A stretch of 64,000 nt of DNA from Candidatus Kryptoniota bacterium (GTDB lineage Bacteria; Bacteroidota; Ignavibacteria; Kryptoniales; JAKASW01), in contig DATCTN010000031.1 in assembly GCA_036567965.1 (NCBI GenBank), positions 124,001 to 188,000 of the forward strand, in the 5' to 3' direction. The notes beneath the pieces were generated by a model. That model worked only from the letters and a program-made list of their open reading frames with translations. It was not told where the DNA came from and searched no databases. Below are positions 2,360-25,174 of the stretch, piece by piece. The first letter of the stretch is position 1; each line of letters begins with the position of its first letter. A program made the translations under genes and the position numbers.

Positions 2360-4213
2360 ATGAAACATTTTATACGTGCGCTGTTTCTCTTGGCGGCCAT
2401 GATACCGCTGTCATTGTACGCACAAACTGATACGGTAGATGTTCCTGCTGACGGTGCGAGCGGAGGAAATCTTGATGGCGCCATCAACACGGCCATAAGT
2501 CAAGGGACGCTGTCCAACACTGTTTTCAGGTTGGCCGCCGGATCTGGATACGGTCAGGATTATATCTTGAACGGTATAGTCACCACTCCAGTTCATCAGA
2601 AGCTCACCATAATCGCTCCGGATCCGACGCCCTCTTCGCCGCCTCCGCAGATAGTGATGAACGCACAGGGAGGTGTGACATGGACGGAGAACTTCGACTG
2701 CTTCGGTGATCTCTACATGAAAAATCTGTGGATAATGTATGTAAACACCAGTGGCACGCAAAATGGTGCCGGTTTATTCATAGAAGACGACAGTATCGCA
2801 AATCAAAGCGGTGAAGGAGAATACGGCTATTTCGAAAACTGTATTTTCGATATGCAGAAAACGAGTGCGAATGGTTGCATAAATCCGGAATGCCTGCATT
2901 TCAGAGGAACTTTCAAGAACTGCTATTTCCGGAACGACGTTGATAATTACTTCATCTATTATGGTCGAGCAATCTCCTGGCAGTATAGTGATACAAAGTG
3001 GCACACCGACAGTCTCTCGTTCGAGAATTGTACCTTTGCTAACCTGGGGTATGTTCTAATGAATGAGAAGCCTTGCTACTCGGACTATGTGTGGTTCAAT
3101 CATTGCACATTCCTGAATATTTGCTGTTATCCTTTGGAAGGAGACGTGTGGCATTGGCTTAACGTCAGCAATTGTATTTTCGTGAATACATGGATGTATG
3201 GTGACAATCAAAGCAGTCTCTATAGTAGATTCCCAAGAGGGGCAGGCACCAATCCAGGCGGCGCCATATTTTCAGTCGACAGTTTAGCCGCCAGCAACTA
3301 CTCTCAGGGCACTGACGCAGTAACATTTCCATACACCGATGCCGACAGGCACATACTTTTTGCCAACAACAGCTTTTATGAAGAGAAATGGTTGACGGAC
3401 TACTGGTTCAGCAATCCAATTACTATTTATCCCGCTAGCGACACGTCTCAGCCGCGTCCTGAGCCGATGATAAATCACCCAACTCTTCTGATGTTTGGGA
3501 ATGATTCTTTGGGTCAGAAACGTTTTCCTCTGATGAACCTGGCAAATCTTTACCCGTCTGATGATACCTCTTACAATGCTTCGATTGCGAACCCCGGCTT
3601 CGTTCTGCCTCCGACCCAAGCTGACAGCATCAAGCGCTTCTTGAACGGAAGATACTTTACCAGCGAACAGATCAACTGGGCGTATAACCAGGGCAAGGAT
3701 GATATAAACGGTGGATGGCCAATGGGCGAAGACCTGTCTTATGATGCGGGCTCTCCATTATACGCTGCGGGAATAAGCGGTTTTCCACTTGGAGATTTAT
3801 TTCATTGGTGGGGTCCAAATTCTTTGTCTGATAAATACACACCGTGGAAGGCACAGCAAGCGCAGGAAGATACTTTGATCCATCATGCACTTGCTACGGG
3901 AGATCTTACGGGAATTATAACCGCCGTGAAGCCGCGTCCTGGTACACCTGAGACTTATGTGCTTCTTCAGAACTATCCTAATCCGTTCAACCCGACGACA
4001 ACCATCGAATACTCGGTACCGAATAACGGATTTGTTACTCTGAAGGTTTATAATATTCTTGGACAGGAAGTAACCACGCTCTTCTCTGGTGTCCGGCAAG
4101 CAGGGAATTATCAGGCGACGTTTGAGGGCGCAAAGTTCGCCAGCGGGGTCTATTTCTACAGGCTGAATGCCGGCAGTGTGTCTATTACAAGGAAATTAGT
4201 TCTCATGAAATAG
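2360..4213 (+). CDS. Secreted beta-helix-like protein with T9SS type A sorting domain
   Basis: 617 residues. A signal peptide (about 1-21, ending SLYAQ) is preceded by a good ribosome site (GAAGGAG, 9 bases before ATG). Residues 25-400 contain many short strand motifs with Asn and aromatic residues (for example FENCIFD, FKNCYFR, FENCTFA, FNHCTFL). This pattern repeats about every 20-35 residues and resembles right-handed parallel beta-helix proteins such as pectate-lyase-like folds. No lyase catalytic signature could be assigned. The last 85 residues (from about 533) form a T9SS type A domain: [25 protein letters not shown] and GVYFYRL, ending KLVLMK. The protein is therefore probably exported across the outer membrane and anchored or released there. 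It lies between the TonB receptor and the FG-GAP protein. Its function is unknown; binding of or action on a polysaccharide is a guess from the fold. Confidence 0.8.
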   Translation: MKHFIRALFLLAAMIPLSLYAQTDTVDVPADGASGGNLDGAINTAISQGTLSNTVFRLAAGSGYGQDYILNGIVTTPVHQKLTIIAPDPTPSSPPPQIVMNAQGGVTWTENFDCFGDLYMKNLWIMYVNTSGTQNGAGLFIEDDSIANQSGEGEYGYFENCIFDMQKTSANGCINPECLHFRGTFKNCYFRNDVDNYFIYYGRAISWQYSDTKWHTDSLSFENCTFANLGYVLMNEKPCYSDYVWFNHCTFLNICCYPLEGDVWHWLNVSNCIFVNTWMYGDNQSSLYSRFPRGAGTNPGGAIFSVDSLAASNYSQGTDAVTFPYTDADRHILFANNSFYEEKWLTDYWFSNPITIYPASDTSQPRPEPMINHPTLLMFGNDSLGQKRFPLMNLANLYPSDDTSYNASIANPGFVLPPTQADSIKRFLNGRYFTSEQINWAYNQGKDDINGGWPMGEDLSYDAGSPLYAAGISGFPLGDLFHWWGPNSLSDKYTPWKAQQAQEDTLIHHALATGDLTGIITAVKPRPGTPETYVLLQNYPNPFNPTTTIEYSVPNNGFVTLKVYNILGQEVTTLFSGVRQAGNYQATFEGAKFASGVYFYRLNAGSVSITRKLVLMK

Positions 4214-4452: not shown

Positions 4453-7400
4453 ATGAAAACATTTATACGTTCAGCAACAGCGGGATTGTTCTTGCTGTTG
4501 CTGGGCATCAGCACAGTGAATGCGCAGGAGGTGACATTCTCCGCAGGTCCGACGTTTCCCACGCTAACGGGTGCCGGCGCAAACGGCGGCTTTGCATGGG
4601 CAGACCTGAAAGGGAGTGGGAATTTGGATGTCTTCATTCCATCCAATATCCTTCTTCATAACAGCATCACAGCGTTCACCCAGGATGCGACTGCCACGGC
4701 GAATATTACGCCTAATACTAACTCGACCGGTTTGCTACTCGCCGATTTTAATGGCGACGGCGTTCCCGACCTGTTTTCAACCAATGGCGGCAATCCCAAT
4801 ACCGGTCTATTTTATGACAGCGCCGGGGTGTTCATACCGGCGACCGGCACTGGCGATCTTGCGACGGCGGGAGTTACTGGCGAAGTCTTCCAGGGGGCTT
4901 CGGCGGCACCTATCGATCACAGCAATTACCTCAGCATCGCGTATCCTGGTACCTTCACAGGTATTACGGGCTCGTCAGTGCCATACGGCGGAGGTATCTG
5001 GCTCCTTAAAGGAGGTCCGACCGGCTTTACTGATATAGGAAAAGGAGCAACAGCTGGAAATCTTGCCATAGACACCGCCCATTCATTCGAATCCTGGGAT
5101 GTACGCTTCTTCGACGCAAATAATGACGGCTACCAAGATTTGTTGATGCCGAGTTTCCGAAACGGATTTTCCCGAATAAACACCAAATCATCGGGCGGTG
5201 TAAATGGTTGCGTCCTGTTCTTGAATGATGGTACAGTCAAGTTTTATGTGCCGACTGCAACGACTCTTGGACGCTCAATCTATGCTCTCGATTCTGTAAC
5301 ACTTACCTATAATGGGGCTGCTGACAGTATTGAATATGCCAGCATTCATCCGGATACAGGAATCATTGTCGATGATACCGTCCGCCACTTCTCTGCCATT
5401 GGTGAGCAATGGGGTGACCTCAATAACGATGGTATCCCCGATCTCGTATTAAACGGTCTTAATTTAACCGATAACAGGGACGGTAATGATACCTTAAGGT
5501 CCGATATTATCCTGTACGGAAAGGGAGACGGCACGTTTACGTACAAGTGGAATGGAGTGCAAGTCGTTGCCAATAACGGATTGACCCAGGTCACATCCCA
5601 ACGGGCAATGAGCATAGGCGACTACAATAATGATGGGTTGCAGGATATATATACAATCCAAACCTACGGACCCCAACACCTTTACAGGAACAACGGTGAT
5701 GGTACGTTCACTGACGAAGCGACCACAGATGGACTGGCGACAAGTGGTGCGCGCGCTGGACAGTTAGTCGACTATAATAACGACGGATTCCTTGACATAT
5801 TCCAGTATACCGGTGGTACTCCTGCACTGCAGCTGAACGGCGGCAATTCCAACCATTGGATTGCGTTCAAGCCGATTGGCACTGGTCATAACAAGTCGGC
5901 AATCGGAGCAAAGTTCACCGTGTGGACCGGAGGACATCAACAAGTTCGCGTCATCCGTGCAGAAGGCGGCTCCGCAGGTATGGGCGGAACATTGAGAGCA
6001 AACTTCGGCCTTGGCACAGCGACCACGGTTGACAGCGTGCACGTTCAGTGGCCCGATGGAACCAGCCAGACCCTTGTTCTCAAAGATGGGGTCAATCGGT
6101 ATTATACTGTCAAGGAAGGCGAGCTGGTGCCCGCTGTTCCTGCCCTTGTCAGCCCGAAGAATGACTCGACGGGAGTGGCAACCTCGCTGACACTAAATTG
6201 GAACAGTGCCGCCAACGCTACTGGTTATCATGTGCAACTCTCGCTTGATCCCACATTTCAGACGAACGTTCTCGTGAACGATTCGACGGCCACAACTAGC
6301 AGCGCAGTTACTGGACTCGGCTATAGTTCATGGTATTACTGGCGCGTTGCCGCGTATGACACCGATTACACGAGCGGCTTCTCCATAGCTGATTCCTTCC
6401 AGACCATCGTACAGGCTCCGGTAGAAGTGCCCACGTTGCTCTTGCCTGCAAACAAAGCAACGAACCAGCCTTACAAGCTTAAACTGGCGATAAGCAAAAC
6501 ATCGGATGCTGCACAATATAATTGGCAGGTGTCGACTGACGGTACATTTGGTTCAAGCTTTGCCGTCAATGATTCAACTATCGACACGACGAATACCGTG
6601 ATGCTCGCCGGCGGCACGAAGTATTATTGGCGTGTACGCGGAGTCAACCCCGGTGGCGCGGCTGCCTTTTCGTCTGCCGATACGTTTACGGTCATGACTG
6701 TTCCGGCAGTACCGGTGCTTGCATTCCCTGCACAAGGTCAAATGTCTGTGCGTGCAGATACCCTGATTTTGAAGTGGCACGCTGTGGCGGCTGACACTGG
6801 GTATATTTGTCAGATCTCCACAAGCAAATCGTTCTCTTCGTTAGTATTTACTTCGGATACGACGAGAGACACGACGTTCAAGGCCACTTCATTGCACAAT
6901 CTCAGCTGGTACTACTGGCGTGTAGCGTCATACAACGCTGGCGGCGCAAGCGCATATAGCGCGATAGATTCATTCGAGACGATTGTCCCGCTCCCCGCCG
7001 CTCCGACGCTCTCTTCACCTGCTAGCAGCGCGACGGGTGTCGGTCGGTTGACAACCTTTGTGTGGCGCACCATGACGTATGCGACACTCTACCACCTGCA
7101 AGTCGCAACGGCTAATGACTTTTCTACTATAGTGCGCGACACGACATCCAGTGATACCACGGTAACTTTGTCGATTCATTTGGATGCCAGCACGAGATAC
7201 TATTGGCATGTAAGCGCAATCGATACCAAGGGGGAAGGTGTATTCTCATCTACGAGGACCTTCGTCACAGGATTAATAGACGCGGTTGATGAACAAGGCG
7301 GCAACATTCCGAAAGAGTTCGCGCTCTTGCAGAACTACCCGAATCCGTTCAACCCGTCGACCACGATCAGTTATGACATACCGAAGAGTTCGTACGTGAA

Positions 7401-7593
7401 GGTTGTAATTTACGACATACTCGGTCGGCAGGTCGCAACGCTCGCGGATGGCTTGCAACAGGCGAACCACTACATCATGCAGTGGTCACCGGCAGGCCTG
7501 AGCAGCGGCGTGTACTTCTGCCGCATCCAGGCCAACAGCCAGGACGGGAAGAATAGTTTCGCTTCCGTCAAGAAACTGATCTTCATGAAGTAA
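4453..7593 (+). CDS. Large secreted FG-GAP / ASPIC-UnbV / Fn3-like protein with T9SS sorting domain
   Basis: 1046 residues. Signal peptide about 1-24 (ending VNAQ), with an AGGAGG ribosome site. Residues 40-460 hold FG-GAP/VCBS-type beta-propeller repeats with calcium-loop motifs of the form D-x-N-x-D-G-x-x-D (DFNGDGVPDLF, DLNNDGIPDLV, DYNNDGLQDIY, DYNNDGFLDIF). Residues about 470-550 match an ASPIC/UnbV domain (IGAKFTVW...VRAEGG...FGLG...VHVQWPDG). Four Fn3-like repeats of about 88 residues follow (560-950), each containing a YYWRV or YYWHV core. A T9SS type A domain closes the protein ([17 protein letters not shown]...YDILGRQV...GVYFCRI). The likely role is a cell-surface binding or scaffold protein exported by the type IX system. 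No catalytic motif was found. A similar Fn3-like module recurs in the GH10 enzyme at 20383. Confidence 0.85.
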   Translation: MKTFIRSATAGLFLLLLGISTVNAQEVTFSAGPTFPTLTGAGANGGFAWADLKGSGNLDVFIPSNILLHNSITAFTQDATATANITPNTNSTGLLLADFNGDGVPDLFSTNGGNPNTGLFYDSAGVFIPATGTGDLATAGVTGEVFQGASAAPIDHSNYLSIAYPGTFTGITGSSVPYGGGIWLLKGGPTGFTDIGKGATAGNLAIDTAHSFESWDVRFFDANNDGYQDLLMPSFRNGFSRINTKSSGGVNGCVLFLNDGTVKFYVPTATTLGRSIYALDSVTLTYNGAADSIEYASIHPDTGIIVDDTVRHFSAIGEQWGDLNNDGIPDLVLNGLNLTDNRDGNDTLRSDIILYGKGDGTFTYKWNGVQVVANNGLTQVTSQRAMSIGDYNNDGLQDIYTIQTYGPQHLYRNNGDGTFTDEATTDGLATSGARAGQLVDYNNDGFLDIFQYTGGTPALQLNGGNSNHWIAFKPIGTGHNKSAIGAKFTVWTGGHQQVRVIRAEGGSAGMGGTLRANFGLGTATTVDSVHVQWPDGTSQTLVLKDGVNRYYTVKEGELVPAVPALVSPKNDSTGVATSLTLNWNSAANATGYHVQLSLDPTFQTNVLVNDSTATTSSAVTGLGYSSWYYWRVAAYDTDYTSGFSIADSFQTIVQAPVEVPTLLLPANKATNQPYKLKLAISKTSDAAQYNWQVSTDGTFGSSFAVNDSTIDTTNTVMLAGGTKYYWRVRGVNPGGAAAFSSADTFTVMTVPAVPVLAFPAQGQMSVRADTLILKWHAVAADTGYICQISTSKSFSSLVFTSDTTRDTTFKATSLHNLSWYYWRVASYNAGGASAYSAIDSFETIVPLPAAPTLSSPASSATGVGRLTTFVWRTMTYATLYHLQVATANDFSTIVRDTTSSDTTVTLSIHLDASTRYYWHVSAIDTKGEGVFSSTRTFVTGLIDAVDEQGGNIPKEFALLQNYPNPFNPSTTISYDIPKSSYVKVVIYDILGRQVATLADGLQQANHYIMQWSPAGLSSGVYFCRIQANSQDGKNSFASVKKLIFMK

Positions 7594-20382: not shown

Positions 20383-21990
20383 ATGTTGTTTGAAGTAATG
20401 CGTCGCTGCAAACGAAGGGAACTCTCCGTTGCATTATCCCTTCTTATTGTCGTCTCGTTACCCGCTCAGTCGATCTCGCAATTGGCTCTCGGCAGGAATA
20501 AGTTCGTGGGCAATGCCGTAACATTTGGCAGTAATATTCCATTGAACTTCATGCAGTATTGGGATCAGGTCACTCCAGGCAATGACGGCAAGTGGGGAAG
20601 TGTAGAGAACACTCAGGGCGTGTTTAGTTGGTCGGGCCTCGACGCCATCTATAATTTTGCCCTGATAAACGGGATTCCCTTCAAAGAGCACAACCTCATC
20701 TGTGGATCGCAGCAGCCTTCGTGGATCGGTTCACTCGATTCCGCCGATCAAAGAGCCGCGATACAAGCCTGGATCGACAGCGTCGGGCACAGATATCCGC
20801 AAGCGACGTTTGTCGATGTCGTCAACGAACCCTTCAATACTCCACCCGACGGGAATAACGGCAGGCCCAACTACATCAATGCGATTGGCGGGGCGGGGGC
20901 TACGGGCTGGGATTGGGTCGTCACGGCGTTCACATGGGCAAGGAAGTCCTTTGCGCCGGGCGTGAAGCTCCTGGTGAATGAATACAACATTCTGCAAAGC
21001 AACTCGGTCACGAGTAACTACATCGCCCTCATTGACACGCTGAAGTCAAGAGGACTCATCGACGGGATCGGAATCCAGGGACACTACTTTGAATTCAAGG
21101 ACGCGGCATACCTTGGATCCAGGTATTCTTATCCCGTTAGTACGTTGAAATCCAATCTTGACAGACTGGCTTCCGCCACCGGTTTGCCTATTTACATTAC
21201 AGAGTTCGATGTTGACGAGAAAGACGGCAATACCCAACTTCAAAATTATAAAACGTATTTCCCTCTCTTCTACGAAGATCCCGGCGTAAAGGGGATGACA
21301 TTGTGGGGATATAATTACGGAGACACGTGGAAACCCTACGCATATCTAGATTCTGTAGGAGTGGAACGACCGGCGTTACAGTGGCTGACGACGTACCTGG
21401 CGAAGTATCTGCTGCAGCCGGCGGTGATATCACCGGCAGACAACACGACAGGCGCACTGCGAAATCCCGTAATGTCGTGGCATACATCGATAGCGGCATC
21501 GTTATACCGGGTGCAGGTATCGACGAACGACATATTCACGAGTGTAGTTGCGGACACGACGGTATCCGACACGCTCCTGCAGCTGCCGGCCCTTACCGCT
21601 CATGTGAAATACTACTGGCATGTCAGCGCAATGAATGCGAGCGACACCGGCGATTTCTCCGCGCCGCTGAGTTTCACGACAGGAGACTCGATAGCTACCG
21701 GTATAAAAGAATTTGAAGAGGTTCCGACCGAGTTTAAACTTTCTCAGAACTATCCGAACCCATTCAACCCGACGACTGTGATCAGCTATCAGTTGTCGGC
21801 AGTCAGCAATGTAAGCCTGAAGATCTATGACGTTCTTGGAAGAACAGTCGCGACTCTAGTGAATGGGAGACAGAACGCCGGATATTACAATGTCATATTC
21901 GACGCGAGCAATCTTCCGAGCGGAGTCTATTTTTATCGGTTGAGCACTCAGAACTTTATTGCGGTTAAGAAACTTCTGCTTCTCAAATGA
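20383..21990 (+). CDS. GH10 endo-beta-1,4-xylanase with Fn3-like and T9SS domains
   Basis: 535 residues. AAGGAG precedes the ATG, and the signal segment spans about 13-33. The GH10 barrel (34-345) contains acid/base E149 in VDVVNEP and nucleophile E274 in YITEFDV. An Fn3-like repeat (about 346-434, YYWHVSAMN) is homologous to those of the FG-GAP protein at 4453. A T9SS type A domain ends the protein ([18 protein letters not shown]...YDVLGRTV...GVYFYRL). It is therefore a surface-exported endoxylanase making oligomers for the TonB and exo-enzyme steps. The usual Trp in the 'H-T-L-V-W' motif is Cys here ([13 protein letters not shown]), while the second GH10 keeps Trp. This may alter subsite binding. 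Confidence 0.9.
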
Positions 21991-22013: not shown

Positions 22014-23873
22014 ATGAACAATTTTCATAAACGTCTTTTTGCAATTATTGTAGTGGCCGCGGCATTTTCATCGAGCGCCTACGCGCAGTCGTACACCGTC
22101 AGTGGCAACGTGTCGGCGTCATCGAATGCCGTCCGAAATGCCTCGATCATTTTCACTGATAATGGTAATCCCACTCTAAAATACACAGCTGTAACTGACA
22201 GTATGGGCAATTTCTTGATTGGCTCGATTACGTCAGTTAACAATGGGACCAACGTACCGTCCAGTTTCAAGCTGCAACAGAACTATCCCAACCCATTTTC
22301 GAGTGCGACGTCTATCCCTTACGAGCTCGACAAGCAATCGGATGTGAAGGTTACGATTTACGATATTCTTGGAAGAAAGGTCCAGGAATTTTCGGTCGGC
22401 TTTCAGTCGGCCGGGGCACACGGAATAGTATGGAACGGGAGAGACAATTTCGGAAAGAGAGTCGCAGCAGGTGTCTACATCTATCGCCTTCAGGCGGGAG
22501 GTGAAGCCCAGGCCAGGAAGCTTGTCTTTGGATTGGGAGGTGAAAACGCGCCCATTTCATTTTCGGGTCTGATCCCTTCGAGATCTTCAGAAATACAATA
22601 TGAGAAGCCCGCGACTCCAGCAGGTGAAACTTTTACCGTGCAGATTCAGAATACAGACAGCACATTCCCTGCGATCACCCCGCAGCAATTCAACAACGTA
22701 ACGGTTCAAAGCGATACCACACTCGATTACAGTGTAACCGCGCCGGCCCCTGTGATGGTTTACTTCGACAGCACCCAGCAGATAATTAGGGGATTTGGTG
22801 CGGCTAATATAGTCACCTGGCGGCCAGACATGACGCCGGCAGAAATCCAGACCGCTTTCGGAACAGGCCCCGGCCAACTCGGGCTTTCTATAATGCGCCT
22901 CCGGATCCCGCCCGACTCCACACAGTTTGGCATCAACATCCCCTCGGCAAAGGCGGCGGAAACTCTCGGTGTGACGGTCATTGCATCGCCATGGACGCCG
23001 CCGGCTTGGATGAAGACTAACGACAACATTGTCGGCGGAAGCCTGGATACAAATAACTACGCCGCGTTCGCTGCATTCCTCAATTCGTTCGCGGATACCA
23101 TGGCGAATAACGGCGCACCGATGTACGCTATCTCAGTCCAGAATGAACCCGACGCAAACGTCACTTACGAGTCGTGCTACTGGACGGGAGCGCAATTTCT
23201 AAATTTCATGAGGAACAACGCGCCCGCAGTGGGCACACCGATTATAATGCCGGAATCCGAAAGCTTCACACACTCGTTCTCCGATCCGACGCTCAACGAT
23301 TCCCTCGCGGCGTCCCATCTTACCATTGTCGGCGGACACCTGTACGGTACGAGCCCCTCGCCTTATCCGCTTGCACTAAGTAAGGGGAAAGAATTATGGA
23401 TGACAGAATATCTTGTGACCGATACGACATGGAACGCGGTCATGGGAACCGCCCAGAGCATCAATGATTGCATGGCCGACCAGATGAGCGCGTACATATG
23501 GTGGTACATCATAAGATTTTACGGACCGATTAACGAAAGCGGCGTGGTCATGAAGAGAGGCTATGTAATGTCCCAGTACTCAAAATTCGTCCGTCCCGGA
23601 TCATACCGTGTCGCTGCGACAGCGAATCCTTTGCCAGGGGTCTACCTGACGGCTTACAAGAACGGCTCTAAAGTGGTTGTCGTGGTCATCAGCACTAACT
23701 CGTCTTCATCCCGTTTGACATTTGATGTTGAGGGCGGGTCCGCGTCTTCATTCACTCCATATGTTACGTCGACTACGAAAAATTGCGCGCAAGGGATCAG
23801 CATACCTGTTACCGGGGGAGGTTTCGCCGCTTCGCTTGATGCATCAAGCGTGACCACTTTCGTATCGAATTGA
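22014..23873 (+). CDS. GH30 glucuronoxylanase-like enzyme with an internal T9SS-like domain
   Basis: 619 residues. The signal peptide ends near AYAQ (25). Residues 26-75 look like the start of a carboxypeptidase-regulatory-like domain. Residues 83-176 are a T9SS type A/FlgD-like domain (QQNYPNPFSSATSIPYEL, YDILGRKV, GVYIYRLQAGG), here placed before the enzyme instead of at the C-terminus. The GH30 catalytic domain starts near 250 (IIRGFGAANI) with acid/base E378 in ISVQNEPD and nucleophile E465 in LWMTEYL. A beta-sandwich side domain runs to the end. The sequence resembles subfamily GH30_8, whose members cut xylan at positions set by glucuronic acid branches. Being between two GH10 genes supports this. 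Whether the internal domain still directs secretion is unclear, since no C-terminal signal exists. Confidence 0.85.
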   Translation: MNNFHKRLFAIIVVAAAFSSSAYAQSYTVSGNVSASSNAVRNASIIFTDNGNPTLKYTAVTDSMGNFLIGSITSVNNGTNVPSSFKLQQNYPNPFSSATSIPYELDKQSDVKVTIYDILGRKVQEFSVGFQSAGAHGIVWNGRDNFGKRVAAGVYIYRLQAGGEAQARKLVFGLGGENAPISFSGLIPSRSSEIQYEKPATPAGETFTVQIQNTDSTFPAITPQQFNNVTVQSDTTLDYSVTAPAPVMVYFDSTQQIIRGFGAANIVTWRPDMTPAEIQTAFGTGPGQLGLSIMRLRIPPDSTQFGINIPSAKAAETLGVTVIASPWTPPAWMKTNDNIVGGSLDTNNYAAFAAFLNSFADTMANNGAPMYAISVQNEPDANVTYESCYWTGAQFLNFMRNNAPAVGTPIIMPESESFTHSFSDPTLNDSLAASHLTIVGGHLYGTSPSPYPLALSKGKELWMTEYLVTDTTWNAVMGTAQSINDCMADQMSAYIWWYIIRFYGPINESGVVMKRGYVMSQYSKFVRPGSYRVAATANPLPGVYLTAYKNGSKVVVVVISTNSSSSRLTFDVEGGSASSFTPYVTSTTKNCAQGISIPVTGGGFAASLDASSVTTFVSN

Positions 23874-23893
23874 AGAACCAGGTGAAGCACCGG

Positions 23894-25174
23894 ATGAGAC
23901 TTATTGCTACTCTCGGGCTGATATTCGCGTCAGTCTTCTTATCGGGTGAGAAGTGTCTGTCTCAAATTGCGGAAGGTCAGGGCAAGTTCGTCGGCTGCGC
24001 TGTGAGCTTACCGATTCCGCAGAGCTTTCTGACCTACTGGAATCAAGTCACGCCCGCGGATGAAGGCAAATTTGGACGGGTCGCCAGCTTATCTGCTGAT
24101 ACATCATTGTGGATCTGGAGTTCTCTTGACCAGATTTATGATTTTGCGTTGATTGACAGTATCCCTTTCAAAGAACATAATCTCGTCTGGGGGCAGGAAC
24201 AGCCGTCGTGGATCGGTTCACTCGATTCATCCGATCAGTACCAGGATGTGGTCAACTGGATAAGGCTTTGTGGAGAGAGATATCCCAAAACGGCAATGGT
24301 CGACGTTGTAAATGAGCCTCTCCATGACACGCCGCAGGCCTCCCAAAGCCCTGTACCATATTACAACGCGCTGGGAGGCGCAGGCTCGACGGGCTGGGAT
24401 TGGGTTATTACCGCTTTTACACTGGCGAGGAAATATTTCCCGAATGCGAAGCTGCTTATCAATGAATACTACATTCTTAATTCCGACCCGTCCGATCCCT
24501 ATGCGTCAGTCTATAAGTACGTGAACATAATTAATCTTTTGAAACAGCGGAATCTCATTGACGGGATCGGTTGCGAGATGCATTTTCTGGAACAGCAGGA
24601 TTCATCAGTCTTAAGAGCGAATCTTGATATCCTCGCAGCGACAGGCGTGCCGATCTATATCACGGAATACACGATCAACGAGTCGAGTGATGCAGCACAG
24701 CTTTCCATCATCGAAAATCAGTTCCCCGTATTCTGGAAGCACCCCGCCGTGAAAGGAATTACCTTCTTTGGTTACATACAGGGGCAGGTGTGGAACCGGA
24801 CTCCAAATTGTTTCCTGATTTATTCGAACGGATCCGTGCGGCCGGCATTGACTTGGCTGATGAATTACGTGGCAGAGAACCCTACAGGAATAAAGAAGAC
24901 GATTCTCCCTTCATCGCCGACGCTCGACCAGAACTTCCCCGATCCATTCAATCCGACAACAGTTATTAGGTATCAGCTATCAGCCACCAGCCGCGTGAGT
25001 CTGAAGGTGTACGATGTAATAGGAAGGGAAATTGAAACGCTTGTGGACGAAAGAGAAACACCCGGAACGCACAGTGTTTCATTTGATGCAGCAAAATTCC
25101 CGAGCGGCGTCTACTTCTACCGGCTCGTGACGGGGAATTTCAATGAAGTAAAGAAACTTGTCCTGATTAAATGA
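23894..25174 (+). CDS. Second GH10 endo-beta-1,4-xylanase with T9SS domain
   Basis: 426 residues from the ATG at 23894, which has AGGTG nine bases upstream. An in-frame TTG at 23870 overlapping the GH30 stop is the alternative. The signal segment (MRLIATLGLIFASVFLSG) precedes a GH10 barrel with EHNLVWGQEQPSW, acid/base E141 (VDVVNEP) and nucleophile E258 (YITEYTI). There is no Fn3 domain: the barrel runs almost directly into the T9SS type A domain ([17 protein letters not shown]...YDVIGREI...GVYFYRL). It is clearly a paralogue of the GH10 at 20383, with a shorter architecture and a conserved Trp that the other lacks. It probably acts on the same chain with different subsite preference. Confidence 0.9.
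   Translation: MRLIATLGLIFASVFLSGEKCLSQIAEGQGKFVGCAVSLPIPQSFLTYWNQVTPADEGKFGRVASLSADTSLWIWSSLDQIYDFALIDSIPFKEHNLVWGQEQPSWIGSLDSSDQYQDVVNWIRLCGERYPKTAMVDVVNEPLHDTPQASQSPVPYYNALGGAGSTGWDWVITAFTLARKYFPNAKLLINEYYILNSDPSDPYASVYKYVNIINLLKQRNLIDGIGCEMHFLEQQDSSVLRANLDILAATGVPIYITEYTINESSDAAQLSIIENQFPVFWKHPAVKGITFFGYIQGQVWNRTPNCFLIYSNGSVRPALTWLMNYVAENPTGIKKTILPSSPTLDQNFPDPFNPTTVIRYQLSATSRVSLKVYDVIGREIETLVDERETPGTHSVSFDAAKFPSGVYFYRLVTGNFNEVKKLVLIK

Follow-up and report, generated by a model that had tools for sequence, protein, structure and literature searches.

How might a xylanase be exported when the domain that resembles a sorting signal lies in front of the enzyme? T9SS cargo is currently defined by a C-terminal domain (CTD). 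In the window analysed here, a stretch of 64,000 nucleotides from a Candidatus Kryptoniota bacterium, an intact open reading frame of 619 amino acids (22014-23873, + strand) has a different layout, with a Sec signal peptide followed by a nested N-terminal module and a GH30_8 xylanase. The signal peptide (residues 1-24; 22014-22085, +) is predicted from its sequence to be cut between AYA and Q, exposing a glutamine, as is usual among Bacteroidota SPI substrates (PMC5837995). The gene is flanked by two GH10 xylanases with ordinary C-terminal T9SS sorting domains, one at 20383-21990 (+; domain at 457-532 of 535 residues) and the other at 23870-25174 (+; 356-431 of 434). The latter opens at a TTG at 23870 according to the program call, with an in-frame ATG slightly downstream. 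About 15 orthologous loci likewise have GH10 neighbours with CTDs. Two other proteins of the window, 2360-4213 and 4453-7593, also end in ordinary CTD-like tails (...VSITRKLVLMK and ...SVKKLIFMK).

The catalytic part (residues 250-619; 22761-23870, +) comprises a barrel and a side beta-domain, and is a complete XynC-type enzyme, with 45% identity and a TMt of 0.94 to 1nof. Pfam and NCBIfam place the GH30 TIM barrel and GH30C matches at residues 307 to 616, and PDB matches place the GH30 domain at residues 254-618. The identity of the catalytic domain to known GH30_8 glucuronoxylanases (XynC, DdXynA 1nof) is 43-45%. Glu378 (QNEPD; 23145-23147, +) and Glu465 (MTEY; 23406-23408, +), which from GH30 family knowledge we take to be the acid/base and the nucleophile, are invariant in 17 orthologues. 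By its fold and Glu pair the xylanase is of the GH30 subfamily 8 type; XynC equivalog status is not claimed, as the NCBIfam equivalog model reached 366 bits against a cut-off of 650. The protein stops at the native GH30_8 C-terminus (...SVTTFVSN). Nothing follows this usual GH30_8 endpoint, and the protein therefore has no C-terminal signal or sorting domain.

The first-pass annotation had described a broken N-terminal beta-domain, and had seen in the sorting-like domain next to it a possible fusion into a linker. The first description holds, the second does not. The broken domain is a single CarboxypepD_reg/CnaB-like host domain, whose N-terminal half (residues 26-70; 22089-22223, +) and C-terminal half (residues 204-244, FTVQIQNTDSTFP...SDTTLDYSV; 22623-22745, +) are separated by an Ig guest domain (residues 82-172; 22257-22529, +), which lies between the strands of this one beta-sandwich. 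Two linkers frame the guest: linker 1 (residues 71-81; 22224-22256, +) and linker 2 (residues 173-203; 22530-22622, +), the latter variable and predicted to be disordered. With the Ig domain removed, the joined flanks matched CarboxypepD_reg over positions 1-80 of 82 with 28.0 bits (E 2.7e-6), a weak match below the Pfam cut-off of 32.3, compared to 21.7 bits for the N-terminal half alone and no match for the C-terminal half alone. In a relative (L049) the joined host reached 32.2 bits against the same cut-off. Foldseek matches of the full-length AF2 model largely reflected the GH30 domain, and a separate AF2 model of the module was therefore made. Both linkers had low confidence in this model, with pLDDT values of about 76-91 for the host strands and about 70-90 for the guest. 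SdrD B, BcpA, and SpaA aligned across both host halves while skipping the guest (model residues 1-222, 86-95 positions, Z 8.4-9.1), and thus in the model the host halves together form a CnaB/transthyretin-like fold, inside which the guest is nested. One protein (L068) has an interrupted host followed by an uninterrupted copy, and in a two-sequence comparison this copy and the joined halves aligned along 81 residues (33% identity, E 7e-14). The rest of that protein (L068:1339-3126, genome G268) belongs to an unknown family and has no CTD.

The guest was recognized by several profiles. FlgD_ig gave the best Pfam score of the region (residues 99-161, 43.4 bits, cut-off 27), followed by Por_Secre_tail (PF18962, residues 91-171, 30.4 bits, cut-off 27). 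TIGR04183 matched with 38.7 bits (NCBIfam cut-off 23), and NCBIfam also aligned the region to the C-terminus of PorU with 46.9 bits. Together with the PDB matches, this bears out the first-pass annotation in placing a sorting-like domain ahead of GH30. The AF2 model predicts a seven-stranded Ig-like beta-sandwich, whose structural matches include the PorU C-terminus (Z 10.1), FlgD 3osv (Z 9.2), and PorZ (Z 8.3). A full FlgD hook-cap protein was not found, as full-length FlgD models covered only the Ig region, with 35 bits against a cut-off of 230.

Among 17 orthologues, the mean pairwise identity was 54% for the guest, 53% for GH30, 41% for the host halves, 28% and 14% for linkers 1 and 2, and 22% for the signal peptide region, which is nevertheless present in all complete rows of the alignment. 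Conservation of the guest therefore equals that of the catalytic domain, with the host below both. The guest, with its motifs QNYPNPF, IYDILGR, GVYIYRL, and RKLVF, follows the C-terminal CTDs column by column, with QNYPNPF near-invariant and GxY kept. According to cryo-EM of the translocon, the motifs of CTDs serve mostly to define the fold. A single contact residue is conserved, a lysine of functional importance close to the C-terminus, which is almost invariant and touches PorV (PMC10994853). The best-aligned equivalent of this motif E lysine in the guest is Lys169 (22518-22520, +), the 17th residue from the GVY glycine, which lines up with the conserved CTD lysine in an alignment to the substrate chain 8glj_D. 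This position is 98% Lys and 2% Arg in 43 N-terminal guests, compared to 85% Lys in 196 C-terminal domains. Lys169 would be the counterpart of RemZ K1110, a residue that cannot be mapped with certainty from the text of PMC10994853. The C-terminal domains end 22 residues from GxY, in K/R (93%), whereas the guests continue into G/N-rich linkers. Neither the final hydrophobic residue nor the terminal K/R of the CTDs is kept in the guests, which have G/N and then mixed residues instead, and in the 619-residue protein more than 440 residues come after the guest.

This nested anatomy is conserved in the class. Seven orthologues with the same domain order (51-59% identity) were found in five other genomes of the genus. 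A module profile run against 294 genomes of the class matched over its full length in 29, which belong to at least nine families. The module was cleanly separated from ordinary CTDs, the weakest full match having 172 bits and partial matches at most 133. Further relatives come from MAGs named Kryptoniota, Ignavibacteria, Melioribacter, Neomarinimicrobiota, and Calditrichota. Melioribacter roseus has an annotated GH30_8 glucuronoxylanase, Mros2090, which adjoins the GH10 Mros2091 (PMC3534657), and a Melioribacter sp. protein (L101) has the nested module. The module lies directly behind the signal peptide in all 44 sequences examined, a few of which are incomplete because of contig ends or a frameshift. 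Its partner is GH30 in 34 of them and another region in ten, including PD40, PQQ, and BNR propellers. A C-terminal CTD is absent from all 44, whichever the partner. On the other side, all 167 related domains without module flanks lay no more than 26 residues from the C-terminus. In the source genome, 90 of a sample of 91 complete sorting-like domains were C-terminal (88 at most 20 residues from the end, two at most about 30), the only exception being the guest described here.

Some loci deviate from this picture. Plasmid-borne relatives matched only in the GH30 region, and none over the module. A candidate stand-alone module protein of 276 amino acids (G001) was withdrawn, its frame being cut by a contig end. 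Two short proteins (L111:3857-4558 and L112:3902-4522) consist of a signal peptide, the N-terminal host half and the guest, and end soon after; possibly they are decayed module proteins. The module-GH30 gene of Ignavibacteria GWC2_36_12 (L096:3887-5860) appears to be split by a frameshift into frames of 469 and 206 amino acids.

The tree set of 43 GH30_8 proteins, from the class search and the named MAGs, included 33 with the module, four with a C-terminal CTD, five with a lipobox, and one with a second module type (L205). Two devices never occurred together in these 43 proteins, and no complete GH30_8 was without any device. The tree requires at least five changes between device states, which indicates several exchanges of device, the enzyme retaining one each time. 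In GH30 enzymes, the module stands in for the C-terminal CTD or the lipobox. A Fisher test of module versus other device gave 1.8e-9, a value which is only descriptive because relatives were treated as independent. The exclusivity could also partly reflect shared ancestry, considering that the class search yielded only nine complete module-free GH30s and that the module is held by related sequences. Two genomes (G071 and G012) each have two different forms of the enzyme. The same-genus GH30_8 lipoproteins L031, L027, L033, L036, and L038 are without an Ig domain, and most are encoded beside GH10 genes with CTDs.

The arrangement is not limited to one kind of module. A GH30 protein (L205) and a GH20 protein (L228) carry, behind the signal peptide, a host of different sequence with another CTD subtype as guest, and neither has a C-terminal CTD. 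The GH20 protein (L228:1291-3558, genome G002, same genus) is a hexosaminidase with a type II N-terminal host and a CTD-like guest. In a low-resolution guest tree, which has too few columns to count recruitments, the type II guests clustered (SH-aLRT 90) and were nearer to the C-terminal domains than to the type I guests. The type II guests may thus have been recruited into this arrangement separately.

The machinery for T9SS export is present in the source genome (G000), as indicated by SprA (937 bits) and a full PorU (918 bits; C18:10729-14058). A second long PorU-like ORF of 1645 amino acids (G000:C31:443209-447471) scored 243 bits, below the cut-off. SprA was above the cut-off in 32 of 32 module-bearing genomes tested. 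The T9SS and SprA are probably general in the class, so that the presence of SprA is a necessary condition only and carries little weight. In the open-access literature searched, which is part of the whole literature, we found no N-terminal or internal T9SS signal, and the described signals are C-terminal. One published screen accepted a T9SS match only if it was C-terminal (PMC11969387).

Our best reading, to which we give a probability of about 0.5, is that the guest is part of an N-terminal, nested, and uncleaved recognition module, which works like a T9SS CTD. We do not file the module as a CTD, because it lacks two defining features, the C-terminal position and the terminal residues; what we propose is a likeness in function. 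In this reading, the T9SS would still recognize the guest. Once Sec had exported the protein, the guest, folded and held by two flexible linkers, would engage the PorV/SprA translocon in the manner of a CTD, with the host domain and the xylanase passing through after it. The position of the guest away from the C-terminus would prevent PorU from cutting it and joining the enzyme to a surface sugar in the usual way, and the guest would probably be kept, as are the CTDs of PorU and PorZ, which stay uncleaved. Its removal by PorU in this domain order would not leave the enzyme attached. The enzyme might then stay on a PorV-type shuttle or leave together with the module. In both cases, the xylanase and the flanking CTD-bearing GH10 xylanases would end up on the same side of the outer membrane. 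The part of this proposal that departs furthest from known cargo, namely that the T9SS reads a sorting domain which is N-terminal, lies within a second domain and precedes the entire cargo, we advance tentatively, at slightly below even odds.

The first-pass annotation had left the choice between a retained structural module and an unusual sorting arrangement. Both stay, and three facts, as far as sequences can tell, make us lean toward sorting: the exclusivity of the devices, a guest as conserved as the enzyme, and the kept CTD lysine. Further points counted for sorting are the lack of a CTD in the 44 module proteins, the second nested type, the presence of SprA and PorU, the GH10 neighbours, and the fold matches to PorU and PorZ. 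The strongest argument against sorting comes from Porphyromonas gingivalis, in which the signal is formed by the last 22 residues and trimming of the last few blocks export (PMC4804311); this end is lost in the guest.

The same loss is what one would see if the guest were a structural accessory, a retired sorting domain or a FlgD-type Ig domain which, together with the host, spaces or stabilizes the enzyme or contacts the substrate, with the enzyme being periplasmic or exported by another route. We consider this a serious alternative, though a less probable one. A structural Ig domain is possible given that FlgD_ig outscores Por_Secre_tail, and the diverse partners of the module, propellers included, are reminiscent of generic Ig or CnaB modules. 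Moreover, as the fold is largely what CTD motifs specify (PMC10994853), their presence would be compatible with a purely structural domain. Against this, the guest matches the catalytic domain in conservation while its own host does not, and its surface lysine is kept at 98%. The module and a C-terminal CTD are also never found together, and domains of the QNYPNPF type are otherwise C-terminal in the source genome.

Recognition by the surface machinery could, alternatively, serve only retention. The guest would then bind PorV, PorU or PorZ-like partners on the outside, and something else would export the protein. PorU and PorZ, which keep their C-terminal Ig domain, are among the nearest fold matches, the NCBIfam match to the C-terminus of PorU points the same way, and the lipoprotein forms of the same enzyme represent a second way of staying attached. 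Yet no other export route is apparent for the non-lipoprotein enzyme, and by sequence this docking role is hard to tell from sorting by the module; we regard it as improbable. As for an assembly error at 22260-22541, a frameshift product or a one-off fusion, only the unusual domain order speaks for it, and it has been refuted by an intact reading frame with intact catalytic residues and by the recurrence of the same order in the genus, the class and the named MAGs, across at least nine families and several partner domains.

If the guest does act as a recognition module, a free C-terminus would not be needed for recognition by the T9SS, and signals would be read as folded domains wherever they are placed. 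Cargo could then either precede or follow the signal, and retention with no cleavage by the sortase would be a normal option. It would also mean that annotation, by looking only at C-termini, has overlooked a class of secreted enzymes, and that the predicted secretomes of Ignavibacteria and Kryptoniota-type bacteria would gain further enzymes. For enzyme export, the module would offer a front-end tag. Even if its role is only structural, it provides a clear case of an Ig domain lodged in another beta-sandwich and common to unrelated enzymes.

Compared to known systems, the protein combines familiar parts in an unfamiliar order. With the GH30_8 glucuronoxylanases (XynC, DdXynA 1nof) it shares the catalytic Glu residues and a xylanase gene neighbourhood, but the known structures are without such an N-terminal module. 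The joined host halves give a weak match, below the cut-off, along the CarboxypepD_reg profile (PF13620) and align structurally with the CnaB-type pilin domains SdrD B, BcpA, and SpaA, but here a whole Ig domain stands between the strands. The FlgD Ig-like domain (PF13860) gives the guest its best Pfam score and a close structural match, yet the guest has no flagellar context, and to our knowledge FlgD is without the QNYPNPF and KKM signatures, positions which lie outside the alignment made here. The retained Ig domains of PorU and PorZ are of the same long FlgD-like subtype, and the guest is presumed to be uncleaved as well, but they form the C-terminal parts of machine components. The T9SS type A CTD (TIGR04183/PF18962; RgpB, PorZ, RemZ) is C-terminal with a free end and a terminal K/R, whereas the guest (82-172 of 619) is N-terminal, internal, and nested, has the enzyme after it, and has lost this residue. 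The guest scores above both curated cut-offs for this CTD and shares with it the Ig fold of the model, the lysine, and the motifs up to KK-M-[VIL], in a genome which has a T9SS.
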